Virus record (IMG/VR): IMGVR_UViG_3300042888_000931
Span: 1-64,000 of that record
DNA: 64,000 nt
Strand: one strand, 5' to 3'
From: a virus
The notes below the pieces were generated by a model. It did not search any database and was not told the origin of the DNA. It was given only the letters and a program-made list of their open reading frames with translations. The position numbers were made by a program, and so were the translations under genes. Positions 837 to 23,245 of the stretch are shown here, piece after piece; the first letter of the stretch is position 1; the number at the start of each line of letters is the position of its first letter.

Positions 837-2951
837 GTGGCAGAAGAGAATATTGACAATACCGCCAACGGTACTGGACCCTTCAACACCAAAATCCCTG
901 GACTTGGCGATGCAGCAGATATCCAGGCAGCCCTAAGACTTTATCACTATGGATCATATACTTATGATGCAGCAGCACCTGTTCCAGGCCCTCTTCCAAT
1001 CCCATCAGTTGCAAACCACCTAAAAACCCTTGTAGATGCAGATGCCCTAGAAGTAGTAAACAGAACTGCAGCAGATGACTTAGAAATAGTAAATAGAAAT
1101 GCAGCAATAGCAGCACATAATTCAGCAACTGTAAATGTCCACGGAATACTAGATACATCTGATTTAGTAACAATATCAGATCTAAATGATGCAATAGACA
1201 ACACAACTGGATCTTATCCTAACCTTGCTGGAAGCGGTATTGAGTGGAATTCTGTTGATGAGCAATTTGACCTTGATCAATCTTTATTAAACAATAATAC
1301 TGTAGTAATTAAGACAACTGGATTTACTTTAGATGCCCTCGATGTTAATAAAACAATTTTGCTTAATGCATCATCTCCAATGAATTTAACTGTTCCGCTA
1401 AATTCTGCTGTTAATATACCAGTTGGATACAAATATAATTTAGTTGAAATCGGAACAGCAAAAACAACTTTTGTTCCATCATCTGGCGTAACAATTGGTA
1501 GCAAGAACTCACAACTATTTTTAGATGGACAATATAGCAGAGGAAATCTTGTAAAGATTGGAACAGATTCTTGGATTTTGTATGGAGATGTTTATGAAGG
1601 TGTTGCAACACCTACCCCTACACCTGTAGCACCTACCCCTGTAGCACCTACCCCTGTAGCACCTACCCCTGTAGCGCCTACCCCTGTAGCGCCTACACCT
1701 GTAGCGCCTACACCTGTAGCGCCTACACCTGTAGCACCTACCCCAACACCAGTAGCACCGACTCCAGTTGCTCCAACACCAGTAGCACCTACCCCTACTC
1801 CTGTTGCACCAACACCTGTTCCAACACCAGTCCCTACTCCTGTAACACCGTTCTTTTCTCCAACACCAACACCAACACCAACACCAACACCAGTAGCACC
1901 TTCTTCAGGAGTTTGGTACACATTCTGCGGTAATGTTTCTGCAGGATATGCGCCAGGAACTGTAGTCGGACCAGTGTTTGATCCATCACTTACATGTTCT
2001 GAAGCATTAGCACAACAAACCTCATTTGGTGAAATTGGATCTGGATGGAACTGTGCATCAGGAACATCCGCATCTTCTTCTGTACCAGCAGCAAGTTGTG
2101 GAGTAACCCCTACACCAGTAGCACCTACTCCTACACCAGTTGCACCAACACCAGTCAACCCTTGTAACCCAGACTGGAGTTTAATTCCTCAATCACAATG
2201 TGTTGAGTGTGGATTAGTCTGGTCACCTGAGTTTGGTGAATGTATTAGCGTATCACCAACCCCTGTTGCCCCTACACCTGTAGCACCTACCCCTGTAGCA
2301 CCTACCCCTGTAGCGCCTACCCCTGTAGCGCCTACACCAGTTGCTCCAAGTTGTGTTCCAGCCGATGCGTGGTCATACAACCAGTCTAAGTGTCAGTCAT
2401 GCGGATATTACTACAGCACAGAATTTGGAGAGTGCTCAACAACTCCTTGGAATACACCTACCCCAGTTGCTCCAACACCAGTTGCTCCAACTCCAGTTGC
2501 TCCAACTCCAGTAGCACCTACACCTGTACCAGTTGCTCCTACACCAGTAGCACCTGTACCTGTACCTGTTGCTCCTACTCCAACTAATATATGTGCTGGA
2601 GATATTTCCTTACTTAGCCCAAGCCAGTGTACTGCTTGTGGATACTTCTACTCAACACAATTTGGTGAGTGTATAACTACTGCACCTACACCTGTAGCAC
2701 CACCGTTCTTCCCACCATTCTTCCCACCTTACTTCCCATTCTTCCCACCATTCTTCCCACCATTCTTTGGACCTGCACCAGTTGCTCCAACTCCAGTAGC
2801 ACCTACACCAGTAGCACCTACACCAGTAGCACCTGTACCTGTAGCACCTACACCTGTAGCACCTACACCAACAGGGGGATGTACTGGATGTATTAGAAAC
2901 TATTGCTACGAGCCATGTCCAGCATGTTGTAATGGCGACTGCGGATGCTAG
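837..2951 (+). CDS. Modular tail fibre with PTPVAP repeats and Cys-rich modules
   Basis: A 704-residue virion fibre or adhesin, starting at GTG 837 behind AAGAGGTGA. Residues 1-125 hold a VHGILDTSDLVT-type segment and residues about 130-255 a beta domain. Both are shared with the fibre at 10323 (VHGILDTAELVT; VPLNS...YGD). From about residue 257 the chain becomes PTPVAP repeats broken by cysteine modules. The first is about 65 residues (359-423). Three related modules of about 30 residues follow, near 441-473, 505-536 and 583-612, sharing QC-x2-CG, an aromatic-Ser pair and FGEC. A Phe/Pro stretch (about 622-645) and an eight-Cys C-terminus (about 680-704) complete it. The repeats suggest stiff, extended linkers between small disulphide or metal-bound domains. 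Binding target unknown. Confidence 0.75.
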   Translation: MAEENIDNTANGTGPFNTKIPGLGDAADIQAALRLYHYGSYTYDAAAPVPGPLPIPSVANHLKTLVDADALEVVNRTAADDLEIVNRNAAIAAHNSATVNVHGILDTSDLVTISDLNDAIDNTTGSYPNLAGSGIEWNSVDEQFDLDQSLLNNNTVVIKTTGFTLDALDVNKTILLNASSPMNLTVPLNSAVNIPVGYKYNLVEIGTAKTTFVPSSGVTIGSKNSQLFLDGQYSRGNLVKIGTDSWILYGDVYEGVATPTPTPVAPTPVAPTPVAPTPVAPTPVAPTPVAPTPVAPTPVAPTPTPVAPTPVAPTPVAPTPTPVAPTPVPTPVPTPVTPFFSPTPTPTPTPTPVAPSSGVWYTFCGNVSAGYAPGTVVGPVFDPSLTCSEALAQQTSFGEIGSGWNCASGTSASSSVPAASCGVTPTPVAPTPTPVAPTPVNPCNPDWSLIPQSQCVECGLVWSPEFGECISVSPTPVAPTPVAPTPVAPTPVAPTPVAPTPVAPSCVPADAWSYNQSKCQSCGYYYSTEFGECSTTPWNTPTPVAPTPVAPTPVAPTPVAPTPVPVAPTPVAPVPVPVAPTPTNICAGDISLLSPSQCTACGYFYSTQFGECITTAPTPVAPPFFPPFFPPYFPFFPPFFPPFFGPAPVAPTPVAPTPVAPTPVAPVPVAPTPVAPTPTGGCTGCIRNYCYEPCPACCNGDCGC
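1606..2875 (+). repeat. PTPVAP-coding 15-nt repeat blocks
   Basis: Degenerate tandem copies of a 15-nt unit (cctacccctgtagca and variants, coding P-T-P-V-A) occur in four blocks, at about 1606-1900, 2250-2345, 2455-2590 and 2680-2875, separated by cysteine-module coding DNA. Synonymous variation between blocks (cct/cca/acc, gta/gtt) shows they are not all recent copies. Near-identical runs at 1620-1740 and 2276-2340 do look recently expanded or exchanged. Confidence 0.85.
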
Positions 2952-10281: not shown

Positions 10282-10322
10282 AAGATAAGTTAATGGGCAG
10301 CCCCCATAAGGAGAATATACAA

Positions 10323-11804
10323 ATGGCAACAAGAATGCAACAGCGCAGAGGTACTGCAGCACAATGGACGGCTGCAAACCCAATTCTAGCAGCAGGTGAA
10401 ATCGGTTTTGAAACAGATACAAGTAAGTTTAAGATGGGTAACGGCTCTTCAACATGGTCTGCCCTAACATATTTTGCTAATGCAACAGAATTAGCAGCAA
10501 TCGTTGATGGAGCACCAGCAGCCCTGAACACTCTCAATGAGTTAGCAGAAGCACTAGGAGACAATCCAGCATTTTTAACAGATATTTCAAACAATCTATC
10601 AAGCCATGCTAACGATACAACACTAATCCATGGTATTGCTGACACAGCACTTCTTGCAACTACAGCAAATGTAGAAGCAGCAAATCAGGCTGCCTCTGGA
10701 GCACTCTCAGAACACGCTGCAGATACTACATCAATCCATGGTATTGCAGACACATCACTTCTTGCAACAACTGCAGATATCACAACACACAATTCAGACA
10801 CAACAGGCGTACATGGTATTGCAGATACATCACTTCTAGCAACTACAGCAAATGTACAAGCAGCAGCAGATAGCGCATCAGCAGCACTTGGAGTACACGC
10901 TTCAGACACAACAGATGTTCATGGAATCGCTGATACTTCACTTCTTGCAACAACAGCAGATATTTCAACACACAACTCAGCAACAGAAAATGTTCACGGA
11001 ATTCTAGATACAGCAGAACTAGTGACACAGTCAGACCTAGTAACCGCACTAGGAAATGCTGCAGTAGATCAGTCAACTCTTGCAGGAGTAGGTATTGACT
11101 GGAACGGAACTTCAGAAGCATTTGACATTGATTCAACTGTAGCAACAAAGACTTACGCAGACGATGCAGTGACAACACACAACTCTGACACAACAAATGT
11201 TCACGGAATTGCAGACACATCACTTCTTGCGACAACTGCAGATGTGGCAGCAGTTACAAAAACCACTCTAGGTCTTGGAAATGTTGACAATACATCAGAT
11301 GCTGACAAGCCAGTTTCAACAGCAACTGTAACAGCAATCGCAACAGCAAAGTCTGAAGCAATTGCAGAAGTAACAGCAGTTATTGATGGTGCACCAAACG
11401 CACTTAACACCCTTAACGAACTTGCTGCAGCACTTGGCGATGATGCTAACTTTGCTTCAACAATTACAACATCACTTGCAGCAAAGGTAGATTCATACAC
11501 ACCAATTACACAAAAGACAGCATCTTATACTCTATCAACGCTAGATCACAGAGATGATTTAATTGAAATGGGTTCAGCATCAGCACTTACATTAACAATT
11601 CCGCTAAATTCATCAATTGCTTACCCAGTAGGAACATCTTTAGATATTCTTCAAACTGGTGCAGGTCAAGTAACGATTGCTGGAGCAGCAGGAGTTACCG
11701 TAAATGCAACACCAGGTCTTAAGTTGAGAACTCAGTGGTCATCTGCAACTCTTTTCAAGAGAGCAGAAAACACATGGGTTGTCTACGGCGATCTAACAGC
11801 GTAA
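10323..11804 (+). CDS. Tail fibre with Mtd-like N-terminus and IHGIADTSLL repeats
   Basis: 493 residues. ATG 10323 is chosen over 10293 because AAGGAG lies 9 nt upstream and the protein then begins ATRMQQRRGTAAQW. The first 50 residues (AGEIGFETDTSKFKMGNGSSTW) match the N-terminal domain of the Bordetella phage tropism determinant and other tail fibres. Then come several copies of a 'SDTT-x-VHGIADTSLLATTAD' unit, NALNTLNELAAALGD segments, and a C-terminal beta domain (about 395-493). The central and last parts are paralogous to residues 93-255 of the 837 protein. Likely receptor-side fibre shaft plus a head domain. Confidence 0.8.
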   Translation: MATRMQQRRGTAAQWTAANPILAAGEIGFETDTSKFKMGNGSSTWSALTYFANATELAAIVDGAPAALNTLNELAEALGDNPAFLTDISNNLSSHANDTTLIHGIADTALLATTANVEAANQAASGALSEHAADTTSIHGIADTSLLATTADITTHNSDTTGVHGIADTSLLATTANVQAAADSASAALGVHASDTTDVHGIADTSLLATTADISTHNSATENVHGILDTAELVTQSDLVTALGNAAVDQSTLAGVGIDWNGTSEAFDIDSTVATKTYADDAVTTHNSDTTNVHGIADTSLLATTADVAAVTKTTLGLGNVDNTSDADKPVSTATVTAIATAKSEAIAEVTAVIDGAPNALNTLNELAAALGDDANFASTITTSLAAKVDSYTPITQKTASYTLSTLDHRDDLIEMGSASALTLTIPLNSSIAYPVGTSLDILQTGAGQVTIAGAAGVTVNATPGLKLRTQWSSATLFKRAENTWVVYGDLTA

Positions 11805-11836: not shown

Positions 11837-12808
11837 ATGGCAGCAGGTAAGAAGATAGGTAAGAAGTCCCAAGCGTCAAATGACTTTTTGGAGCCATTAA
11901 AGCCAGTTATTGGTACTGCAACAAACGTAGGAACTAACAGACCATTTAACAATGGAGCAGCAGTTGTTACATTTTCTTTACCCGCACTTTCCCCTGCTGC
12001 CACATCTTTCACAGTAACAGCAAGCACTGGACAGACAGGAACTGGAGCATCTTCTCCAATCACTGTAGAAGGCATTGCATCAACAGCAACACCAACATTT
12101 ACAGTAAGAGCAACTAATGCAGCAGGAACATCTGCTGCTTCTGATGCATCTAATTCTGTAACAATTACAACAGTTCCAGCAACACCATCTGCACCAACTG
12201 CAACAGCGGGAGTAGATCAAGATACAGTTTCTTGGACAGCACCAGCAAACGGAGGAAGTGCAATCACTTCTTATGTTTGGGCAGCATCAGATGGCAAAAC
12301 TAATTCAACAGCATCAACATCTGTCGCTGTAGGACAAGAAGCAAACACTGCACAGACATACACTGTTCGTGCAATAAATGCTAACGGAACATCTGCAACA
12401 TCTCCAGCATCCAATAACGTAACCACAATTGCTCCATTCTTTCCCCCATTCTTCCCCCCATTCTTCCCATTCTTCCCTCCATTTTTCCCACCATTCTTCC
12501 CGTTCTTCCCACCATTTTTCCCACCATTCTTCCCATTCTTCCCACCGTTCTTCCCATTCTTCCCTTACTTCCCATTCTTCCCACCGTTCTTCCCATTCTT
12601 CCCGTTCTTCCCACCGTTCTTCCCACCTTACTTCCCATTCTTTCCACCGTTCTTCCCATTCTTCCCTTACTTCCCATTCTTCCCACCGTTCTTCCCGTTC
12701 TTCCCGTTCTTCCCACCGTTCTTCCCACCAACATTCTCATCAAGTTCAGGACCAAAGTGTACAGCCAACTATTGCTGGCAGTGCCCATGTCAACCATGCG
12801 CTTGTTAA
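11837..12808 (+). CDS. Fibronectin-like protein with Phe/Pro-only domain and Cys tail
   Basis: 323 residues with an AGGAGAT SD. Residues about 25-195 are two fibronectin type III-like domains (PSAPTATAGVDQDTVSWTAP... AINANGTSATSPAS). Residues about 198-300 consist almost entirely of Phe and Pro, with a few Tyr, in FFPP/FFP units. The last 19 residues hold six cysteines (KC..YC..CPC..CAC). A shorter Phe/Pro stretch and Cys tail also end the 837 fibre. No precedent is known to me for such a long aromatic/proline tract. It is probably virion-exposed and may act as an adhesive or as a substrate for the prolyl-hydroxylase-like enzymes in the next operon. Confidence 0.7.
   Translation: MAAGKKIGKKSQASNDFLEPLKPVIGTATNVGTNRPFNNGAAVVTFSLPALSPAATSFTVTASTGQTGTGASSPITVEGIASTATPTFTVRATNAAGTSAASDASNSVTITTVPATPSAPTATAGVDQDTVSWTAPANGGSAITSYVWAASDGKTNSTASTSVAVGQEANTAQTYTVRAINANGTSATSPASNNVTTIAPFFPPFFPPFFPFFPPFFPPFFPFFPPFFPPFFPFFPPFFPFFPYFPFFPPFFPFFPFFPPFFPPYFPFFPPFFPFFPYFPFFPPFFPFFPFFPPFFPPTFSSSSGPKCTANYCWQCPCQPCAC
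12430..12735 (+). repeat. Phe/Pro-coding low-complexity repeat (TTC TTC CCA CCx)
   Basis: About 300 bases of pyrimidine-rich + strand made of 9- and 12-nt units (ttcttcccattc, ttcttcccaccg). A block of roughly 100 nt containing the Tyr variant (ccttacttcccattc) occurs twice, around 12552 and 12655, showing internal duplication. The strand asymmetry is extreme, with almost no G. Confidence 0.85.
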
Positions 12809-13375: not shown

Positions 13376-14089
13376 ATGACAACTTATGATGAAAATGAAA
13401 CCCCTTGGTTTACCAAGGATAGATCAGAAACAGCCTTAAATAGATATCCATCAAAAACTATTGGAAACAATATTTTAGTTGAAAACCCAGCATTAGGAAT
13501 TAACCTATACAGAAATGTGTTTTCAAAAGAAGATTCTGAAAGATACATAAAAATATTAGAGTCTAATCTAGGTGGCAATGGAAAATACAAATGGTCAGAA
13601 GCAAAAGTAACTAACTCAGATGTGCCAATTAAAAAGGCTAGAGATGCTGTAGACTTTAGATTTAAGCAAGAAAATTTAGGTCCAAGAGACGAAGATAACT
13701 CTGAACTAATTGACCTACACGAAGAGATCTATCAAAAGTTAAAGTTCTGTGTTGACGATTATGCACGGTACTGGGGAATCAACGTAGTATATTATGAAGC
13801 ATTTAACTTTGTAAAGTATGAAGGAGAAGGAACCCACTTCAACATTCATGCCGATCACGGTCCAATGTATAATTGCACGGTCTCTGCTGTTATTTATATA
13901 AATGAAGACTACGAAGGTGGAGAGATTAGATTTCCAAGAATGGACAATTATACTCATAGTCCAAAAATAGGAGACATTGTTCTTTGCCCATCAAACTATA
14001 TTTATGAGCATGCTTCATTGCCTATGAAAGAGGGAACAAAGTATTGTGTTGTCGTAATGACAGACATTAATGAACTAGGACACAAGTAG
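13376..14089 (+). CDS. 2OG-Fe(II) oxygenase 1 (prolyl-4-hydroxylase-like)
   Basis: 237 residues. The double-stranded beta-helix core carries H158-A-D160 in NIHADHG and the distal H212 in YEHASLP, with GTKY supplying a possible 2-oxoglutarate-binding Lys. Between them are the hallmark AVIYINEDYEGGEIRF and KIGDIVLCPS. P4H-type enzymes use O2 and 2-oxoglutarate to hydroxylate peptide prolines or small molecules. It is the first gene of the oxygenase operon. Its stop overlaps the next GTG. The closest relative in the window appears to be the 14866 protein (both have a DHG after HxD and an ESNLG segment), so these are duplicates. Confidence 0.85.
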   Translation: MTTYDENETPWFTKDRSETALNRYPSKTIGNNILVENPALGINLYRNVFSKEDSERYIKILESNLGGNGKYKWSEAKVTNSDVPIKKARDAVDFRFKQENLGPRDEDNSELIDLHEEIYQKLKFCVDDYARYWGINVVYYEAFNFVKYEGEGTHFNIHADHGPMYNCTVSAVIYINEDYEGGEIRFPRMDNYTHSPKIGDIVLCPSNYIYEHASLPMKEGTKYCVVVMTDINELGHK

Positions 14090-14856
14090 TGTCTTTAGTC
14101 GCTAAGTTCAGATCCTTTAGACCCTGGCTAGATAAAGAGAATATCTCTACACCAGTACCAACACAAAAAGAAATGCCAGATTGGTATAAAAACGCAGACA
14201 GATTTGCTAAAATGCCAAACGGAGAATACTATAAAGCACCAAAAGAAGTTTGTCCATTTCCCAAAGAAGGAACAACAGACGACTATGGAAAGATACCTAC
14301 ATGGAAGGCGTGTCCTGCAATTATGGATGCGTTTGCAACTGGTTATGTGTTTAAAACTCCTTGCGACCTAACATTTGCTAAAAATTCTCAGGGGATAATT
14401 AATGTTACAATTGATGATCCTAAATATAGAGACTTCTGTACACAAAGACCACCAATGCCACAGTTTGAACATCCAAAAGGATATTACCAGTACCACTTTG
14501 CCTGGAGTTCTCCATGGGGGCTAGAATTACCAGAAGGATATAGTGCATTATTTATGACTCCAATGAATAGGTTTGATCTGCCATTTTTAAATACTACTGG
14601 AGTTGTTGATTCTGACAAGGTACACCTTCTTGGAAGTTTTCCATTTTTTATAGCAGAGGGCTGGGAAGGAACGCTTCCTGCTGGAACCCCATACTTGCAA
14701 GTTCTTCCATTTAAAAGAGAAAACTGGGAACATGAGATAGAGATTTTAGGTCAGTCTGATATATATGGTAAAATGGTAGATAACGCAAAATTCTATCGGC
14801 AACCTGATGGAGGAGTGTACATTAAAAAAGTTTGGTCCCGTAGAGAATATAAATAG
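14089..14856 (+). CDS. DUF6065-like cupin protein 1
   Basis: 255 residues from a GTG that overlaps the previous stop. Notable segments are the N-terminal STPVPTQKEMPDWYKN, MTPMNRFDLPFL, FFIAEGWEGTLPAGTPYLQVLPF and KVWSRREYK. The pattern of a 'NP.N/MNRFD' strand followed by 'F..E.W.G.LPAGTP..Q..P' fits the DUF6065 type of phage and bacterial beta-barrel proteins, often found near oxygenases. No metal ligand set is evident. The protein at 15549 looks like a relative. It could be a partner or substrate carrier for the oxygenases. Function unknown. Confidence 0.6.
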   Translation: MSLVAKFRSFRPWLDKENISTPVPTQKEMPDWYKNADRFAKMPNGEYYKAPKEVCPFPKEGTTDDYGKIPTWKACPAIMDAFATGYVFKTPCDLTFAKNSQGIINVTIDDPKYRDFCTQRPPMPQFEHPKGYYQYHFAWSSPWGLELPEGYSALFMTPMNRFDLPFLNTTGVVDSDKVHLLGSFPFFIAEGWEGTLPAGTPYLQVLPFKRENWEHEIEILGQSDIYGKMVDNAKFYRQPDGGVYIKKVWSRREYK

Positions 14857-14865
14857 GAGAATAAA

Positions 14866-15549
14866 ATGCAAACATGGACAGAAAAAGAAGACCTTGGCAA
14901 TGGAATCATCTGCTATAGAAATGTAATCAAAAAAGAGTTTGACGTAATAAACAGACTTGAGTCCAACTTGGGATTAGTTGCTGACTACGGAGTGTTGTCT
15001 GCAGATGGCAAAAGATATCACTGGATGCCAGCCTATGTTGGATACCAGCAACTTATGCCAGACTATAGAGACTGCGTTGATTTTAAGTTTAAAAAAACAG
15101 ACATAGAATTAGACAAAAGCGAAGAGTCCTTAAATCTACAGGCATTGTGGCAAGACATTTATGATGCACAACATGCAGCAGTAGAAGATTATAGAAAAGA
15201 CTACAACATTATGCCACTTAAATACTGGGAGGCTTTTAACTTTATCAAGTATGGTCCAGGTCAGCACTTTATGGAGCACCATGACCACGGATATTCTTAC
15301 AACTGCACACTATCTTTAGTTGCATACGTAAATGACGACTATGATGGCGGAGAGTTATTCTTTAGACTGCAAGGACTAAACATTAAGCCACAGGCTGGAG
15401 ATTTGTACATCTTCCCATCTAATTTTATGTATCCTCATCAGGCTATGCCAGTTCACTCTGGAACAAAGTATTCTATTGTAACAATGTTAGACTATAGCAA
15501 GAAGTATCATACACCAGATATGTATGATCCAAAGTGGGACAATGAGTAA
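14866..15549 (+). CDS. 2OG-Fe(II) oxygenase 2 (prolyl-4-hydroxylase-like)
   Basis: 227 residues with an AGGAGAAT SD. H138-H-D140 lies in MEHHDHGYS, the core YVNDDYDGGELFF follows, then KPQAGDLYIFPSNFMYPH supplies the distal His and GTKYS the 2-oxoglutarate-binding Lys. It is strongly similar in layout to oxygenase 1. The N-terminal KEDLGNGIICYRNVIKKEF matches the 'hp.nv.s.ee' opening of phage P4H-like proteins. The stop overlaps the next ATG (TAATG), linking it to the second DUF6065-like protein. The repeat of oxygenase plus DUF6065-like pairs suggests duplication of a two-gene unit. Confidence 0.85.
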   Translation: MQTWTEKEDLGNGIICYRNVIKKEFDVINRLESNLGLVADYGVLSADGKRYHWMPAYVGYQQLMPDYRDCVDFKFKKTDIELDKSEESLNLQALWQDIYDAQHAAVEDYRKDYNIMPLKYWEAFNFIKYGPGQHFMEHHDHGYSYNCTLSLVAYVNDDYDGGELFFRLQGLNIKPQAGDLYIFPSNFMYPHQAMPVHSGTKYSIVTMLDYSKKYHTPDMYDPKWDNE

Positions 15550-16265
15550 TGCTAAATATATCAGTAGAAAGGATGCAAGGTAGTAATTTTAATATTAGTC
15601 CAATGTCTATTAAAAGAGATTGGATGGACCTTACATCTGAACACCATGCATATAGATGTTTTCCAGTAACACAGGCAAACGTTATTGGATGGAATCTTAC
15701 TTGCACAGAAGATATTGAGTTTGAGTGGGATGGTATAAATGATCAAACAGATCAGCATGTAACAATATTTAATCCACAAGGTTCTTATGCTGGTAGAGGT
15801 CAGTCTTCTATAAGTTTAAATACTAGTTTAGTTTTTAGAACAGATCCAGAAATTAGCATCTGGACAATTAATCCAGTAAACTATTTTAGCGAAGACTTTG
15901 AGACAATGTCTAACCTGGTTAGCACATCTTTTTATCCCAATCCACTACCACTTGCCATTAGAGCACGAAAAGCAAATCAAAGAGTAGTCATAAAAGCAGG
16001 TACTCCAATAGCAACGATTATTCCTATATCTCTAACAAACTTAAATAACACTACTATAGAGGTTGTTGAATATAGAGATGACGACAGGTCAAAGGAAAAC
16101 GCAAACAGATCCTACGGTGAAGCAGCACAAGAAGTAAACAAGTCTGGACAATGGACAGATTGGTATAGAGATGCTATTAACGAAAAGGGAGAAAGTTTAG
16201 GTTCTCACGAAGTAAAAGCATTAAAACTTTCAGTTAAAGATAACACGAATGGTGATACAATATGA
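15549..16265 (+). CDS. DUF6065-like cupin protein 2
   Basis: 238 residues, start in TAATG with the previous gene. Segments such as WTINPVNYFSEDFETMSNLV, SFYPNPLPLAIRARKANQRV and IKAGTPIATIIPISL reproduce the 'NP.N.F...G...T.f.P.p.p....... P.G.P.A.i.P' layout of the 14089 protein and the DUF6065 family. The C-terminus (KENANRSYGEAAQEVNKSGQ) is helical. It is sandwiched between two oxygenases, with an ATGA overlap downstream. No enzymatic motif is visible. Confidence 0.6.
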   Translation: MLNISVERMQGSNFNISPMSIKRDWMDLTSEHHAYRCFPVTQANVIGWNLTCTEDIEFEWDGINDQTDQHVTIFNPQGSYAGRGQSSISLNTSLVFRTDPEISIWTINPVNYFSEDFETMSNLVSTSFYPNPLPLAIRARKANQRVVIKAGTPIATIIPISLTNLNNTTIEVVEYRDDDRSKENANRSYGEAAQEVNKSGQWTDWYRDAINEKGESLGSHEVKALKLSVKDNTNGDTI

Positions 16266-16936
16266 ACATGGATGAATACAAAGTAGTACAAAGAAAGCCA
16301 TCAATGACGCCATCAGGCTGGTTTGGTAACAGCAAGGATATGATTGTTGAATTAGAAAATTTTATGACACAACAAGAAATAGAGTTTCTAGAAAAGGCTG
16401 CAAAGTCATTAACAATTTGGGATGTTACTGAAAGCCATGTTAATGAAAATGGAACTGTCGTATATGAAGCAAGTTATTGGAAAGACAGGGTTGCTACTAG
16501 TCCTACTCTAGATAAGAATGATCCATCGATTGCTCCAATTATTGCAGGTCTGTTTGAAAGACTAAAGCCAATAGTTGAAGAGTTCTACAAGGTAAAGGTT
16601 ATTCCTACTGGAACAACCATTGTTAGATGGCTTCCTGGTCAGTTCCAGAAGCCTCATGCAGACAAAGAACTGCATGAAGGTCCAGATGCTGGAACTCCAA
16701 ATGATTTTCCAAACTACGACCTTTCTAGTTTGTTCTATTTGAATGATGATTATGAGGGTGGAGAGTTATACTTCCCATTACAAGATGTTAAGTTTAAACC
16801 TAAAAAAGGTGCTGCTTACTTTTTTCCAGGGGATATGAATTATATTCACGGAGTAACAGAGATTAAGAGTGGTATCAGATACACCTGCCCATTCTTCTGG
16901 GAAATTACAGAGCATACGGGAGATAGAAAGCCATGA
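16262..16936 (+). CDS. 2OG-Fe(II) oxygenase 3
   Basis: 224 residues; ATG 16262 overlaps the previous stop, and a second ATG is two codons later. The iron site is H-A-D in QKPHADKELHEG with a distal His in YIHGVTEIKSGIRYT, whose Arg fits the 2-oxoglutarate site. The core SLFYLNDDYEGGELYFPLQDV is classic P4H-like, and KPKKGAAYFFPGD precedes the distal His. All residues needed for activity are visible. It is joined by ATGA to the next oxygenase. Confidence 0.85.
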   Translation: MNMDEYKVVQRKPSMTPSGWFGNSKDMIVELENFMTQQEIEFLEKAAKSLTIWDVTESHVNENGTVVYEASYWKDRVATSPTLDKNDPSIAPIIAGLFERLKPIVEEFYKVKVIPTGTTIVRWLPGQFQKPHADKELHEGPDAGTPNDFPNYDLSSLFYLNDDYEGGELYFPLQDVKFKPKKGAAYFFPGDMNYIHGVTEIKSGIRYTCPFFWEITEHTGDRKP

Positions 16937-17805
16937 CAGAGTCTCTTAATGCAGTTGAAATATATCCAAAGATTTTTGTATATAAGGGTCTCTTTAAAGA
17001 CATAAATCACACCTATAGTCTTTTAAAAGAATCAGAAGGACAGGAAGATGGACTTTTTAGTCCTTGGACGAGTTGGTCTCACTTTGGAGAATATATTAAT
17101 CCAATATTTAAAAACCATAATGATAATTTAAAAATAGAACATGTTCAAACTATAAAAACTTCAACAGAAAAACAAGAAGAACATAAGCAAGTTCTTTTAG
17201 AAATTCTTAATAATTTTATGATAGCAACAAAAGACTATATTGCAAAAAACAATGTTGACTTTGACGAAGATAGGCTTGTCCCAGGTATTAAAGATCAAAG
17301 AGGAAATGATGTTAAAGAATGGGTATATACTGGACCATCTATAGCAAGATACAAGGTAGACATTGAAGACCCACTGGCAATGACATATCATACAGACTAC
17401 ATAAGAGAGCCAATAGTAAGCCCAGGACACAAGTTTGCAATTACTGCTTTAACATACTTTAATGACGATTACCACGGTGGAGAAATTGATTTTATAGCAA
17501 ATGGAGAAGCGTATATGTATAAGCCAGAGGCTGGAGACCTTCTCGTTTTTCCATCAGGTCATCCAGAATTTCTAATGTCTGAAAAGTCTATATACCTTCA
17601 TGGAGTAATGCCTGCAGAGCATAACTCAAAGTATCTTTCAAGAATGTACTGGACAAAATACTCTACTGGTTCACCAGAGTGGCTTGAGAACGAAGAAAGA
17701 CTTGGCAAGGAAAAGTGGCAGGAAGAATGGAAAGACATTATGCAAAAGTTTAGAGATGAGAATCCTAATAGAAATAATGCTGATAAAGAAAGAAGGATAC
17801 AATGA
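16933..17805 (+). CDS. 2OG-Fe(II) oxygenase 4
   Basis: 290 residues, the longest of the set. The iron site is H-T-D in MTYHTDYIREP, the core ALTYFNDDYHGGEIDFIANG follows, then KPEAGDLLVFPSGHPEF and a distal His in YLHGVMPAEHNSKY. The N-terminal 130 residues differ from the other copies, with a charged helical part (KTSTEKQEEHKQVLLEILN) that may set substrate choice. The C-terminal 40 residues are highly charged. ATGA overlaps occur at both ends. Confidence 0.85.
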   Translation: MTESLNAVEIYPKIFVYKGLFKDINHTYSLLKESEGQEDGLFSPWTSWSHFGEYINPIFKNHNDNLKIEHVQTIKTSTEKQEEHKQVLLEILNNFMIATKDYIAKNNVDFDEDRLVPGIKDQRGNDVKEWVYTGPSIARYKVDIEDPLAMTYHTDYIREPIVSPGHKFAITALTYFNDDYHGGEIDFIANGEAYMYKPEAGDLLVFPSGHPEFLMSEKSIYLHGVMPAEHNSKYLSRMYWTKYSTGSPEWLENEERLGKEKWQEEWKDIMQKFRDENPNRNNADKERRIQ

Positions 17806-18548
17806 ATCTAGATAATAAAAAGAGAATAACTAAGGACATAGTTGTTTATGAAAACTTTATTGATGCAGAAACTGCTGCAAAACTTGTAAAGGTTTTAGAC
17901 AAGCATGTAGAAGTTGGCACAATAACCTGGATGCCTATATCTTTCTATGAGTCTTATTCCTCAGTATTGCCACAAGACAATGATGAGCATGTAGAAAACG
18001 AAGGATTGCCAAGCGACATATTTTCACAAATGAAGCAAGGAATTATTGAGGCAGTTGCAAGTGTTCACGATCTTGACCCAAAGATAATTTCTCAAATTGG
18101 ATACCATACGCAAAAGTGGGAGCCAGGAGCATATGCAAGAAAGCATTCCGATAACACTGATGAGCATGGAAAATCTGGTGCTTTTACAAGAAGCAGGTAT
18201 GCAGCATTCTTATATTTGAATGATGACTTTGAAGGTGGAATGTTGCAGTTCCCAGACCAAGACATAAGTCTTCAACCTAAAGTTGGAATGCTTGCTGCAT
18301 TTGACGGGGGATTTAACAATATGCACGAAGTAACCCTTATCACTAGTGGAGTTAGATACACCATTGGTTCATTCTGGGATGATCGTGAAGAGGATGCTTA
18401 CCCTCAAGAAGTAAGAGATGCTTGGGCTGAAGAGATGAAGGCCACTAGAGCACAACAGGAAATTGAAAGAGCAGAGTGGCAAGAGTTGCTGAAGCAAGGC
18501 TGGAAACTTGATGCTGATGGAAATAAATATAAGGCGGAGGACCTGTAA
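17802..18548 (+). CDS. 2OG-Fe(II) oxygenase 5
   Basis: 248 residues. The iron site is H-S-D in ARKHSDNTDEHG, the core AAFLYLNDDFEGGMLQFPDQD follows, and the distal His with Arg lies in NMHEVTLITSGVRYTIGSFW. The last 45 residues form a charged helix (WAEEMKATRAQQEIERAEWQ). The LQFPDQDI...PKVGML order matches soluble P4H-like phage enzymes. It is linked upstream by ATGA, and its stop is directly followed by the GTG of the next gene. Confidence 0.85.
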   Translation: MNLDNKKRITKDIVVYENFIDAETAAKLVKVLDKHVEVGTITWMPISFYESYSSVLPQDNDEHVENEGLPSDIFSQMKQGIIEAVASVHDLDPKIISQIGYHTQKWEPGAYARKHSDNTDEHGKSGAFTRSRYAAFLYLNDDFEGGMLQFPDQDISLQPKVGMLAAFDGGFNNMHEVTLITSGVRYTIGSFWDDREEDAYPQEVRDAWAEEMKATRAQQEIERAEWQELLKQGWKLDADGNKYKAEDL

Positions 18549-19211
18549 GTGGAAGTTTTTTTAAAAAAAGAGTTTGATGATGCTGGATATAGTACTGAGG
18601 TTTTTCATGAACATGTTTTGTTTATAGAAGACTTTATCAGTGCTGAAGAACTTGATACTATTTTAAAAATAATTGAAACGACCCCAAACGAAGACTGGAT
18701 GATAGAGTATACTAAAAATCTTGCTAGATTCTGCATGGAAAAGTTTGGAAGAGATGATGTAGATAATCTTGTTGCAGAAGGAAAGTTTGAGATTACTCAA
18801 AATTGGGCAGACAAGAATTTAAACATTGTTACTGAGCCGATAAGCGTAACCCTTCAAGGAAGACTTGGAAGACTTCTGGCACTTGCAGACCCATCTCTAG
18901 AACTTGCTGGTTTTGGAACACTACAAAGGATGCAGGGTGGGGTTGAACTAAAGTCTCACACAGACCAGCATACAGATCCATCCATTAGATATGCTGCTAT
19001 ACTATACATTAACGATGACTACAAGGATGGAACTTTATTCTTTAAAAATAAAGAGAATTCAGACTTAAGGCCAAAGCCAGGAACATTGCTTATTTTCCCA
19101 GGTAACGAAGAATATGAGCATGGAGTAAGGCCTGTAGGAGAAGGACCCATAAGATATGTTACTGTAGGCTTTATGAAGGTAACAGGTTTTTATGAGAAAA
19201 ATAAATACTAA
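18549..19211 (+). CDS. 2OG-Fe(II) oxygenase 6
   Basis: 220 residues from GTG 18549, placed directly after the previous stop with GGCGGAGG as SD. The iron site is H-T-D in KSHTDQHTDP, the core AAILYINDDYKDGTLFFKNK follows, and the distal His with Arg lies in YEHGVRPVGEGPIRYVTVGF. The usual EGGE is KDGT here, so the loop differs, but the ligand set is intact. The N-terminal half (FIEDFISAEELDTILKIIE) is the helical cap common to these enzymes. Confidence 0.85.
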   Translation: MEVFLKKEFDDAGYSTEVFHEHVLFIEDFISAEELDTILKIIETTPNEDWMIEYTKNLARFCMEKFGRDDVDNLVAEGKFEITQNWADKNLNIVTEPISVTLQGRLGRLLALADPSLELAGFGTLQRMQGGVELKSHTDQHTDPSIRYAAILYINDDYKDGTLFFKNKENSDLRPKPGTLLIFPGNEEYEHGVRPVGEGPIRYVTVGFMKVTGFYEKNKY

Positions 19212-19222
19212 GGAGATACAAA

Positions 19223-19852
19223 ATGGACAGAGAAATACTTGAGGAAAAGGTTTATTATTACACAAATGTAATTGAAGACCCAAAGAAACTTGTTGAGGCA
19301 ATTGAAAATGACAACAAGGATGAATGGGGAGAGTGGATGGCATGCAGCGGAGAGCACTATGTCTATGGAACAGACAAGAGCATATCTTTAACAGCAGAGT
19401 CAAACGAAAAAGATAAGTATATTTATAACACTCTACAAAAGGCATTTGATGATGTAGCAAGAGACTACGCTGCAGCACAAGGTATTACAGAAGAGCCAAA
19501 ACTGTTTCCAATGTATCCTATCAAGAAGTACCAGCCTGGAACGTTTATGGGTGCACACTTTGATCAGCAAGAAGGAGACGAAAGACTAAAGGTTTCTTTT
19601 GTTATGTACCTTAATGATGATTACGAAGGCGGAGAAATATCTTTCACTATTGCTTCTCCAGACGGAGTTTTACAGAATCCAAGCCCAGAAGCAGATTTTG
19701 CAGAAGCACAGCATAATGGAAATTATTCATTTGCAGTAAAGCCAAAGGCTGGAAGCATCATTGTGTTCCCACCATCACCACCATACCATCACACTGCACA
19801 CCTAGTTAAAAGCGGTGAAAAGATCATGGTCCCACAACACTGGATTCACTAG
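19223..19852 (+). CDS. 2OG-Fe(II) oxygenase 7
   Basis: 209 residues with an AAGGAGAT SD. The iron site is H-F-D in GAHFDQQEGDE, followed by VMYLNDDYEGGEISF. An insertion of about 30 residues (SPDGVLQNPSPEADFAEAQH) precedes KPKAGSIIVFP. The distal His is in YHHTAHLVKSGEKIMVPQHW, with Lys for 2-oxoglutarate. It ends the run of seven oxygenases; the methyltransferase begins one base after its stop. Confidence 0.85.
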   Translation: MDREILEEKVYYYTNVIEDPKKLVEAIENDNKDEWGEWMACSGEHYVYGTDKSISLTAESNEKDKYIYNTLQKAFDDVARDYAAAQGITEEPKLFPMYPIKKYQPGTFMGAHFDQQEGDERLKVSFVMYLNDDYEGGEISFTIASPDGVLQNPSPEADFAEAQHNGNYSFAVKPKAGSIIVFPPSPPYHHTAHLVKSGEKIMVPQHWIH

Positions 19853-19853
19853 T

Positions 19854-20447
19854 ATGACCCAGGGCTATCAAAATTTTAGCGAACAAGAACAGTTTGTTTT
19901 AAATTTACTTGATAACAAAAAAGAAGGATACTATGTAGAACTTGGTGCTGCCCATTCAAAAAATGGAAGCAATACTTACAGACTTGAAAATGAGTTTGAC
20001 TGGAAGGGTGTTTCTTTTGAAATTGTTCCAGAACTACACAAAGAAGTTTCTGAGAATAGGAAAAACCCTTGTATCCTTGGGGATGCTACAAAGTTTGACT
20101 ATATCAAATACTTTGAAGAAAACAACTTTCCAAACCAGATAGATTACTTGCAGGTAGATATTGATGCTGGATACCAAACAGATGGTAGACCTGCTGGTAA
20201 CCACTATACAACTCTACATGGTTTGATTGCTGTACCTCTAAATAAGTATAGATTTACAGTTATAACTTTTGAGCACGATTCAAACATGTACTGGAGAAAT
20301 ACGGCAATGCGTGATGCACAAAGAGAAATTCTTGACTCGTTGGGCTACTCTCTAGTTGTTAGACAAATCCATGAAGACTGGTGGGTAGACCCAACAGCAA
20401 TTGGACTAGAAAAATATAGAGAGTACTTTAAATGGGACACCCTATAA
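19854..20447 (+). CDS. FkbM-like SAM-dependent methyltransferase (putative)
   Basis: 197 residues from ATG 19854, which directly follows the previous stop (the frame is open 13 codons further upstream, inside oxygenase 7). YYVELGAAHSKNGSNTYRLE matches the SAM-binding first motif of FkbM-type methyltransferases (VDvGA..G..S). GVSFEIVPELHKEV gives the acidic ribose-binding position, and QIDYLQVDIDAG the later motif. FkbM-type enzymes O-methylate sugars and other small molecules. In this operon it could cap a sugar or a hydroxylated residue made by its neighbours. It overlaps the next gene by 16 nt. Confidence 0.65.
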   Translation: MTQGYQNFSEQEQFVLNLLDNKKEGYYVELGAAHSKNGSNTYRLENEFDWKGVSFEIVPELHKEVSENRKNPCILGDATKFDYIKYFEENNFPNQIDYLQVDIDAGYQTDGRPAGNHYTTLHGLIAVPLNKYRFTVITFEHDSNMYWRNTAMRDAQREILDSLGYSLVVRQIHEDWWVDPTAIGLEKYREYFKWDTL

Positions 20448-21112
20448 ACAATAAGACAGCAATTGTTACAGGAGCCAGCAAAGGTGTTGGATACGCAACA
20501 GTAAAACTTTTATCTGAAAATGGATATAAAGTTATTGCTGTTTCAAGAGACCTCTCTAAAGTTTCAGAACTTGTTTCTGAGAATGTTGAAATGTATGAAT
20601 TAGACATTACAAATTCAGAAGAAATTAAACGCTTTCACGAACACTATAAAGACATAACTTTAGATCTTTTAGTAAACAATGCTGGTGGAGGCTCAGGGCC
20701 AACATATATAATTAATGAGACTATGGACAACTTTAGAAGAGCGTATGATATAAATGTTTCTGGTCCAATGTATCTTTCCCAACTTTTTGTTCCATCTATG
20801 AAAAAGTCAGAGTCTGCAACAATCATTTTCGTTAGTTCTATTGGTGGAAAATATCCATACAGATCTGGTGGAAATTACACAAACGCTAAAAGAGGAATGA
20901 TGGCACTTGTAGACACCATGAGACTAGAGTTCCCAGAGTACGGAATTAAGGTTACTGAAATTTGTCCAGGTACAATTGACACACAAATAGAAAAAAGAGA
21001 AATTGCCATTACTGCTGAAGACATGGCTGAGTCTATAAGATGGGTAGCAAGTTTGCCAAAGCATGTCAACATAAATCATATAGAGATAAATCATATACTT
21101 AGTGGTAAATAA
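20432..21112 (+). CDS. Short-chain dehydrogenase/reductase (SDR)
   Basis: 226 residues, classical SDR. The cofactor motif TGASKGVG is near residues 14-21, with NNAGGG at about 86-91. The catalytic Ser is in FVSSIGG and the catalytic Tyr/Lys in NYTNAKRG (YxxxK). ICPGTIDT sits where the PG motif is expected. These enzymes oxidise or reduce alcohol/ketone groups with NAD(P). It is the last gene of the oxygenase operon and is followed by a terminator. It might process a hydroxylated or sugar product. The substrate cannot be read from sequence. Confidence 0.8.
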   Translation: MGHPINNKTAIVTGASKGVGYATVKLLSENGYKVIAVSRDLSKVSELVSENVEMYELDITNSEEIKRFHEHYKDITLDLLVNNAGGGSGPTYIINETMDNFRRAYDINVSGPMYLSQLFVPSMKKSESATIIFVSSIGGKYPYRSGGNYTNAKRGMMALVDTMRLEFPEYGIKVTEICPGTIDTQIEKREIAITAEDMAESIRWVASLPKHVNINHIEINHILSGK

Positions 21113-21211: not shown

Positions 21212-23245
21212 ATGTCAGATTTTTTTAGTTTTAAACTTCCAGAGGACTTCGTAGAAAAGTACAAGAGCCAAGAAAGCCCATTTGGGTTTAAGGATGCAGC
21301 AGAAAACTCACTTGGAGAAATTACTTTTATTCGTACATATTCTCGAATGAAGGAAGATGGAACTAAGGAGCGTTGGCATGAAGTTTGTCGTCGTGTAATC
21401 GAGGGTATGTATTCAGTTCAGAAGAATCATGCTAAAGAAAACCGTTTGCCATGGAATGACTACAAGGCTCAGAAGTCAGCACAAGAAGCATTCCAAAGAA
21501 TGTTTGAATTGAAGTGGACACCACCAGGACGAGGTATGTGGGCATTTGGAACTCCTATGACTATGGAGAAGAAGAACTCAGCAGCACTACAGAACTGTGC
21601 CATGGTCTCCACAAAGGACCTTGATAAGAATGATCCAGGAGCCCTATTTGCCTGGGTTATGGATGCATTGATGCTTGGCATTGGTGTAGGGTTTGACACA
21701 GTGGGACAGGATAAGAATTTTACAATCTATGCTCCAACAGAGCCAGAAGAGGTGTTCGAAATTCCAGACACTCGTGAAGGCTGGGTCGAGTCAGTCAGAC
21801 TTCTAATCAACTCATATTTGAGAGCAAACCAGAGCATTCAGAAGTTTAACTATGATTTGATCAGACCTCTTGGAGCCCCTATCAAGGGCTTTGGAGGCGT
21901 TGCATCAGGACCTGCACCTCTTATCAAGTTGCACGACCAGATAGACCGTGTAATCGGCTCCAGAGGCGGAGAAACACTAGACTCTCGTGCTATCGTAGAC
22001 TTGGTAAACCTTATTGGTACCTGCGTGGTATCAGGCAATGTTCGCAGATCAGCAACTCTTGCTTTAGGTAATGCAGGTGATGAGACATTCATGAATCTAA
22101 AGAATGCAGAACTATTCCCAGAGCGTAACTCGTTTGACCCAGACAATCCAGGTTGGGCCTGGATGTCAAACAATTCTATTTCAGCAGAAGTAGGAACAAA
22201 GTACGAAGACTATGTAGATTTAATTACGGAAAACGGAGAACCAGGTTTTATCTGGCTAGATGTTGCTCGTAATTATGGACGACTAAAGGATGCGCCAGAC
22301 GGTAAGGATTATCGTGTGATGGGATTTAACCCATGTGCGGAGCAGCCATTGGAATCATACGAACTATGTACACTTGTAGAAGTGCACTTGAATCGTCATG
22401 AATCTAAGGAAGACTTCCTGCGTACCCTTAAGTTTGCATACCTTTATGGAAAGACCGTAACACTTGTTCCAACACACTGGCCACAAACAAACGGTATCAT
22501 GCAGCGCAACCGTCGTATTGGTACGTCACTAACAGGTATAGCATCCTTTGCAGATCAAAAGGGTTTGCCAATTGTTCGTGAGTGGATGGATGAGGGATAC
22601 AACAAGATCCGTCACTATGACCACCAGTATTCAGAATGGCTTTGTGTTCGTGAATCAATTCGTGTAACAACAGTTAAGCCATCAGGATCAGTTTCAATTC
22701 TTTCTGGTGCAACTCCTGGAGTTCACTGGGGACCTGGAGGAAACTTCTTCCTTCGTGCAGTTCGATTTGGAAACACAGATCCAATGATGCACTTGTTCAA
22801 AGCAGCAGGGTACACAATTGAAGATGACGTAGTATCAGCAAACACCTCAGTAGTCTACTTCCCAATCAAGTCAGGTCATCCAAGATCTGAAAAGGATGTA
22901 ACATTGTTTGAGAAGATTGCACTTGCTGCAACTGCTCAGAAGTACTGGTCAGATAATGGTGTTTCTGTAACTCTATCCTTTGATAAGGAAACAGAGTCAA
23001 AGCATGTTGTTCCAGCACTTCACATGTACGAGGGACAACTAAAGGCAGTCTCATTCCTTCCAATGGGAAATACTGTTTATCCTCAGCAACCATATACTCA
23101 GATCACTGAAGAAGAATATGAGTCCTATATCGGCAAGTTGAAGCACATTGATTTCTCTGCTATCTATGATGGAGCAGAAAATCTTGAGGCTCAAGGCGAG
23201 ATGTACTGCACAACAGATTACTGTGAAATTAAAATAAACAAGTAG
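21212..23245 (+). CDS. nrdJ: Class II (B12-dependent) ribonucleotide reductase
   Basis: 677 residues, resembling the monomeric adenosylcobalamin-dependent ribonucleoside-triphosphate reductases. Recognisable parts are PPGRGMWAFGT, the first active-site Cys in ALQNCAMVST, the radical-site loop NPCAEQPLESYELC, TTVKPSGSVSILSGATPGVHW and a C-terminal redox Cys pair CTTDYC. It makes dNTPs from NTPs without oxygen or a separate small subunit, but needs host adenosylcobalamin. It has its own promoter and lies between the modification operon and the head genes. No B12 riboswitch is visible in its 37-nt leader. Confidence 0.9.
   Translation: MSDFFSFKLPEDFVEKYKSQESPFGFKDAAENSLGEITFIRTYSRMKEDGTKERWHEVCRRVIEGMYSVQKNHAKENRLPWNDYKAQKSAQEAFQRMFELKWTPPGRGMWAFGTPMTMEKKNSAALQNCAMVSTKDLDKNDPGALFAWVMDALMLGIGVGFDTVGQDKNFTIYAPTEPEEVFEIPDTREGWVESVRLLINSYLRANQSIQKFNYDLIRPLGAPIKGFGGVASGPAPLIKLHDQIDRVIGSRGGETLDSRAIVDLVNLIGTCVVSGNVRRSATLALGNAGDETFMNLKNAELFPERNSFDPDNPGWAWMSNNSISAEVGTKYEDYVDLITENGEPGFIWLDVARNYGRLKDAPDGKDYRVMGFNPCAEQPLESYELCTLVEVHLNRHESKEDFLRTLKFAYLYGKTVTLVPTHWPQTNGIMQRNRRIGTSLTGIASFADQKGLPIVREWMDEGYNKIRHYDHQYSEWLCVRESIRVTTVKPSGSVSILSGATPGVHWGPGGNFFLRAVRFGNTDPMMHLFKAAGYTIEDDVVSANTSVVYFPIKSGHPRSEKDVTLFEKIALAATAQKYWSDNGVSVTLSFDKETESKHVVPALHMYEGQLKAVSFLPMGNTVYPQQPYTQITEEEYESYIGKLKHIDFSAIYDGAENLEAQGEMYCTTDYCEIKINK

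Follow-up and report, generated by a model that had tools for sequence, protein, structure and literature searches.

The closest described relatives of the protein reported here are the fn3/Ig proteins of uncultured tailed phages represented by UniProt A0A6J5NYB8, which have the same pair of N-terminal domains with 58% identity over the aligned part; the entry is named for its fn3 domain only, and the likeness is known for the aligned part alone. In the literature that we searched, no aromatic stalk class is described for phage fn3/Ig proteins. Architecturally, a parallel is found in the collagen-like proteins of a hypervariable island of Ca. Nanopelagicales phages (PMC10202952), i.e. fibres with a conserved attachment end, a repetitive stalk of variable length and a variable receptor-facing end, encoded in a host-recognition island. 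Their stalk, however, consists of Gly-X-Y triplets, whereas that of the protein encoded from position 11837 of our sequence consists of Phe and Pro and comes with its own oxygenase cluster.

A system that works in a similar manner is prolyl 4-hydroxylase with collagen and extensin: these are Pro-rich repetitive structural proteins, and the gene with the FFPP block has 2OG-Fe(II) oxygenases of the same broad superfamily as its neighbours. The substrates are non-homologous, however, and the FFPP stalk, whose hydroxylation we infer, is half Phe. Regularly spaced Phe within small spacers is also a feature of FG-repeat nucleoporins and of further low-complexity proteins rich in aromatic residues; the Phe spacing is comparable, especially to that of the FSFTP, FGFTP and FGA stalk classes described below, but there is no homology, and the FFPP stalk is far richer in Phe and Pro and is free of Gly or polar spacers. 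A search of PMC full text for 'FFPPFFP' returned nothing; as most subscription papers lie outside its scope, an earlier description is possible. As far as the literature was searched, we class the FFPP protein as a stalk-and-tip fibre with a previously undescribed stalk.

A 99-residue block of phenylalanine and proline

The window, i.e. the whole stretch of viral DNA analysed here, comprises 64,000 nt. The gene under study and its parts are:

11837..12808, + strand: gene of a probable anchor-stalk-tip protein of 323 aa (ORF with ribosome-binding site; at least 327 relatives)
11837..12430, + strand: two fn3/Ig-like domains, residues 1-198 (Pfam, AlphaFold, Foldseek)
12434..12730, + strand: [FY]FP(P) stalk of 99 residues (200-298) and 28 units (composition, unit grammar, codon pattern)
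12731..12805, + strand: variable tip TFSSSSGPKCTANYCWQCPCQPCAC with six Cys (relatives' tips diverge much faster than N-termini)

The block at 12434-12730 is made up of 53 Phe, 43 Pro and 3 Tyr and contains no other residue; its units are FFPP (14 times), FFP (11 times) and YFP (3 times). An earlier reading of the DNA from its letters alone (the sequence-only reading) had described just such a domain of about 100 residues with few Tyr, followed by a six-Cys tail, which we find as well (CTANYCWQCPCQPCAC), and it had rightly pointed to a strand asymmetry of the DNA, purines accounting for 13% of the block. As F, Y and P together make up 12% of the residues in the 16 other window genes, a run of 99 such residues has a chance of ~1e-91 per start. 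Across all six frames of the window there are two F/Y/P runs of at least 8 residues, this block and a run of 23 residues in the protein encoded at 837-2951. No other part of the 11837 protein is as hydrophobic as the block (GRAVY 0.76), which has neither the Gly-X-Y triplets of collagen nor a single glycine. In the AlphaFold model it is devoid of secondary structure (pLDDT 52-67), in agreement with the expectation of the sequence-only reading that it would form no helix or sheet; a chain that is disordered or polyproline-II-like would look the same. A repeat like that of the RNA polymerase II CTD was considered and rejected: the sole match of the block in a PDB sequence search, to the CTD of RPB1 (phmmer E 9e-5), is due to composition, coming from spaced Tyr and Pro only, and no YSPTSPS heptad aligns.

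The codon usage of the block is unusual as well, with 49 of 53 Phe codons being TTC, compared with 137/485 (28%) in the other genes, perhaps reflecting avoidance of T runs or slippage; over the FFPP blocks as a set, the TTC share is 92% inside and 41% outside. The block holds 14 diproline motifs, the translation of which may require EF-P.

The DNA of the block is of low complexity, and open frames also run through it antisense and in a second forward frame. This would fit a DNA-level repeat or assembly artefact whose reading frame is no real protein feature; an assembly artefact is what the sequence-only reading had itself named as a refutation. However, a scan of IMG/VR for relatives of the 11837 protein gave at least 599 candidate stretches, at least 327 of which encode relatives, and the DNA pattern for FFPPFFPFFP, of the kind that the sequence-only reading had proposed to look for in other phage proteins, occurs in at least 120 IMG/VR stretches; relatives thus come from hundreds of contigs and many metagenomes. 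One relative from another metagenome (L001) has a block identical in amino acids over all 99 residues to that of the window, with 13 nucleotide differences, all 13 of them in third positions and silent in the frame given here. Among 23 pairs of blocks of the same length, codon differences were silent in 326 cases and replacements in 20, where 21% of single-base changes are silent by chance; the protein sequence of the block is therefore under strong purifying selection. In light of this, we regard the chance that the block is an artefact as negligible.

In isolate phages, neither tblastn nor blastn found a match, a true negative for the N-terminus alone because the low-complexity filter of BLAST masks the block, and no family in PHROGs matches the 11837 protein. 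Among 84,980 cellular genomes there was one relative (L083, JAFMJX010000128.1), located together with three oxygenases on a 5.3-kb contig of a Chitinophagaceae MAG. This contig is most likely a phage fragment, probably misbinned, and a cellular origin was rejected.

The grammar of the units

Within 125 distinct blocks we counted 2317 canonical [FY]F-P(P) units, which are not independent events because repeat copies arise partly by duplication. The residue before Pro is Phe in 2317/2317 of them, while the first residue is Phe in 2159 and Tyr in 158. Tyr is found at position 1 in 63 of 169 proteins and at position 2 in none of the 169. When the unit is defined more loosely, Phe is the last residue in 2496 of 2504 two-residue inter-proline segments, and the first position also accepts S, T, W, A, G, H and R. 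Since a single base change from TTC to TAC would give Tyr at either aromatic position, selection tells the two apart; the invariant second Phe thus indicates that the requirements on the block are specific and go beyond mere greasiness. The mean unit length is 3.53 residues. Long and short units alternate locally (the variance over 2-6 units is smaller than binomial), and this alternation is lost over 8-10 units; in the absence of a strict 7-residue period, a fixed heptad register was rejected.

Conserved N-terminal domains and hypervariable tips

The Pfam matches of the N-terminus of the 11837 protein, fn3 at E 2e-4 and PKD_6 at E 5e-4, stay below the curated cut-off. The relative L053 matches fn3 above it (E 1.5e-9), and Foldseek likewise returns fn3 matches, so that the region can be taken as fn3/Ig-like; the best viral match in Foldseek is the above-mentioned A0A6J5NYB8 ('Fibronectin type III', uncultured phage). 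AlphaFold predicts two beta-sandwich domains with pLDDT >90 over most of residues 21-200, followed by the extended block.

The relatives share the same layout, i.e. common N-terminal domains, a repetitive stalk of varying length and dissimilar tips. Between relatives with 85-95% identical N-termini the median tip identity is 31-38%, and the tips comprise Cys-rich peptides, Hint domains and short glycine-rich or acidic ends. A spacer joining an anchor to a receptor-facing tip would show just this pattern. A diversity-generating retroelement as the source of tip variation was rejected, since the 90-kb record contains no reverse transcriptase.

Hint/intein-like tips are present in many relatives (e.g. 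L211:8796-9275, L119:3622-4125, L173:3786-4295, L056:6727-7218), the tip in the window not being one of them. Their Hint fold is evident from a profile match to 2lwy (E 6e-11), an AlphaFold model with pLDDT 94 and Foldseek matches to BIL, intein and hedgehog structures (E 1e-7 to 1e-5). In FFPP phages, many of these tips retain Cys1 as well as the HN at the end, whereas the versions from FGA phages have lost both, and the block-B His is often replaced by Gln. Other tips (L116, L140, L174, L196, L200, L030) have short motifs at their ends, e.g. SSERFKHSIIKV or SDYRLKDDIEEY, which are reminiscent of how S74-type intramolecular chaperone domains begin; the domain itself is absent.

Two further window genes are of relevance here:

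837..2951, + strand: second protein with a short FFPP block (2700-2768), flanked by PVAPTP repeats and, at 2880-2948, a Cys-rich tip
10293..11804, + strand: tail-fibre gene lying upstream, its product having an Mtd_N domain (E 9e-14 in Pfam; tail fibre families in PHROG)

The 837 protein is fibre-like with long PTPVAP repeats. The sequence-only reading had a shorter FFPP version at its end: the version exists and is 23 residues long, but about 60 more residues follow it, with PVAPTP repeats and the Cys-rich tip CTGCIRNYCYEPCPACCNGDCGC. This tip resembles those of the 11837 family, and judging from this protein, and likewise from L153, tips look exchangeable between paralogues. FFPP blocks are also attached to other unrelated N-termini, in PTPVAP-repeat proteins and in an fn3-FFPP-fn3 arrangement besides fibres like 837.

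Other stalk types and one type per phage

Searches that started from the L038 and L056 proteins showed that an N-terminus of the 11837 type may also bear (FSFTPY)n, (FGFTP)n, (FGVFGFSP)n, (FGA)n or (YNF)n. These alternative stalks are all aromatic-rich and nearly uncharged; among the stalk types compared, Phe directly before Pro is specific to FFPP stalks. Stalk types were never mixed in the contigs tested: FFPP DNA occurs in 0/42 contigs with a non-FFPP stalk, and FGA or FxP DNA in 0/26 tested FFPP contigs. In all 18 loci with two aromatic-stalk proteins, several of these loci being near-copies, the types match, even across unrelated N-termini (L202, L253). Any of the following could account for the matching: linkage, gene conversion, an enzyme system used in common or contact between stalks.

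That every alternative stalk is aromatic and almost uncharged, together with the hydrophobicity of the block, could be taken to mean that it is the stalk which adheres to the envelope of the host by hydrophobic contacts, as an adhesive or membrane-touching element of the sort that the sequence-only reading had also listed, with the tip being secondary. A host-contacting element should show the reverse of what we observe, namely a strict stalk grammar and hypervariable tips, and mere stickiness would not separate the two aromatic positions of the unit; we thus consider this improbable. Of the receptor-gripping role suggested for the FFPP domain in the sequence-only reading, gripping by the tip is the more likely version and gripping by the stalk the less likely one, because the stalk retains its grammar at varying length while the tips are almost wholly different at 85-95% identical N-termini.

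2OG-Fe(II) oxygenase genes clustered behind the stalk gene

Directly downstream of the 11837 gene lie seven 2OG-Fe(II) oxygenase genes, two DUF6065-type genes and one dehydrogenase gene:

13376..14089, + strand: 2OG-Fe(II) oxygenase 1 (PF13640 E 5e-10; prolyl-4-hydroxylase-like HxD...H...K motif)
14089..14856, + strand: phrog_7084 protein, relative of DUF6065 genes in other cassettes
14866..15549, + strand: 2OG-Fe(II) oxygenase 2 (PF13640 E 1e-14; prolyl-4-hydroxylase-like motif)
15549..16265, + strand: DUF6065 protein (PF19541 E 6e-31)
16262-16936, 16933-17805 and 17802-18548 (within 16262..19852), + strand: 2OG-Fe(II) oxygenases (PF13640 above curated cut-off)
18549-19211 and 19223-19852 (within 16262..19852), + strand: 2OG-Fe(II) oxygenases (PF13640 above curated cut-off)
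20432..21112, + strand: short-chain dehydrogenase, in the cassette (PF00106 E 2e-43)
21212..23245, + strand: ribonucleotide reductase, conserved right border of the cassette (96-99% identical in other-stalk phages)

All seven oxygenases score above the PF13640 cut-off, and HxD, the distal His and Lys/Arg were identified by pattern in the six tested, with 19223 being less typical. Of these six, only 13376 and 14866 have the His/Lys spacing of prolyl 4-hydroxylases. Members of PF13640 act on substrates other than proline too.

For an association test, proteins were thinned to ~93% N-terminal identity and taken with 5 kb of downstream DNA. At least two oxygenases within these 5 kb were found for 64/64 FFPP proteins, a class that as counted takes in variants such as HFPPFFPP and NFCPFFP, compared with 1/37 for other stalks. 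A total of 8 changes of the FFPP label are required on the N-terminal tree, and well-supported branches force 3 or more of these; the supported independent contrasts between stalk and oxygenases agree in 3/3 cases (p 0.25, too few for significance), and the best tree irrespective of support offers 8 contrast pairs. Among contigs of at least 30 kb, which are partial and mutually related, six or more PF13640 genes are present in 27/29 with FFPP and 2/27 with other stalks. The FFPP exceptions are L128 (38-kb contig, 0 PF13640 genes) and L095 (54 kb, 1), the non-FFPP exceptions L297 (7 genes) and L253 (6).

The association could also come about by linkage without function, which is the main rival to hydroxylation of the stalk. 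The stalk would then be an unmodified spacer, and the oxygenases would act elsewhere (on the host envelope, small molecules or other virion proteins), both merely sharing a hypervariable host-recognition island. The genes are adjacent and physical linkage alone can co-transfer them; L128 has an FFPP stalk and no oxygenases on its contig, relatives of the 14866 oxygenase are found in cyanophages, and Fe(II)-oxygenases have been reported in host-recognition islands of marine phages, no substrate being given (PMC3909814). On the other hand, FFPP stalks on unrelated N-termini are likewise found in PF13640-rich contigs (L087, 6 genes; L088, L115 and L145, 7 each; L157 and L161, 13 each), and the strict separation of stalk types in every phage tested also argues against it. 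We consider linkage without function unlikely, though as a rival it has to be taken seriously.

Exchange of the cassette between near-identical phages

Phages with FGA or FxP stalks can be almost the same as the phage of the window: the DNA polymerase is 95-98% identical in L275, L297, L304, L303 and L029, the portal protein 93-96% identical in L275, L277, L304 and L303, and the upstream gene order is the same. Backbone lineage as the cause of the association between stalk and oxygenases was therefore rejected. What differs is the segment from the stalk half of the 11837-type gene through to the genes before the ribonucleotide reductase. Genome comparison thus shows exchange of stalk and oxygenase cluster as one cassette between phages; that the exchanged segment begins inside the stalk gene and runs to the reductase gene is in keeping with linkage as well. 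The nearest relatives of the window polymerase are those of Streptomyces phages (54%), suggesting that the phage is perhaps actinobacterial.

The cassettes of other stalks carry different genes. Just behind the stalk gene, most FGA loci (e.g. L275:9194-10149) have a GNAT-like gene (15/18, weak match) and a gene of ~140 aa (14/18). The product of L202:9716-10513, also present in L038, is sulfotransferase-like (PF03567 22.6 bits, cut-off 22) and is encoded behind a Tyr/Ser/Thr-rich (FSFTPY)n stalk; tyrosine sulfation of the (FSFTPY)n stalk in L202 and L038 is possible. These loci suggest that each stalk chemistry may have its own modifying enzymes.

A proposed mechanism

From its anatomy, which supports this well, the 11837 protein of these aquatic phages is probably an accessory protein for host recognition with anchor, stalk and tip. 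A location on the virion is suggested by its neighbours, which include the Mtd_N tail-fibre gene 10293, and the two fn3/Ig-like domains would hold the protein there. Judging from its composition, the [FY]FP(P) block would form an extended polyproline-II-like spacer of up to ~30 nm, the phenylalanines of which probably pack against adjacent stalks, and the hypervariable tip, in this phage a small six-cysteine peptide, would contact the host.

The prolines of the stalk are probably the target of the 2OG-Fe(II) oxygenases encoded directly downstream, if our model is correct. The proposal, one of several in the sequence-only reading, that the domain is a dense hydroxylase substrate has gained strong circumstantial support from the association with downstream oxygenases and the joint swapping; together with the P4H-like motif of 13376 and 14866, this makes hydroxylation of the stalk by the neighbouring enzymes a real though tentative possibility. 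In the literature searched, nothing relevant was found on hydroxylation of phage fibres. Hydroxyproline in collagen and plant extensins offers a comparison for solubility and stiffness: hydroxylation might turn a greasy rod into a more soluble and stiffer one, with the invariant Phe before Pro serving as an enzyme recognition site or a packing core. Stalk and enzymes are inherited as a single exchangeable cassette. For the explanation as a whole, a recognition protein of the tail region with anchor, stalk and tip whose stalk is hydroxylated by linked enzymes, we see an even chance. More speculatively, phages may encode dedicated post-translational modification systems for their own fibre stalks, in which clusters of prolyl-hydroxylase-like enzymes would make F-P repeats into a hydroxyproline/phenylalanine rod, a novel kind of fibrous protein; whole phages would then switch between cassettes of chemically different stalks and their enzymes, hydroxylases in the case of FFPP and other enzymes in those of FGA and FSFTPY.

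If true, this would establish a class of fibrous proteins consisting of about half phenylalanine, although low-complexity regions are reported to be depleted of aromatic residues (PMC6821194), and a stalk that phages of near-identical sequence exchange along with the enzymes encoded next to it. It would also name a substrate for many 2OG-Fe(II) oxygenases of aquatic phages, the targets of which are mostly unknown.
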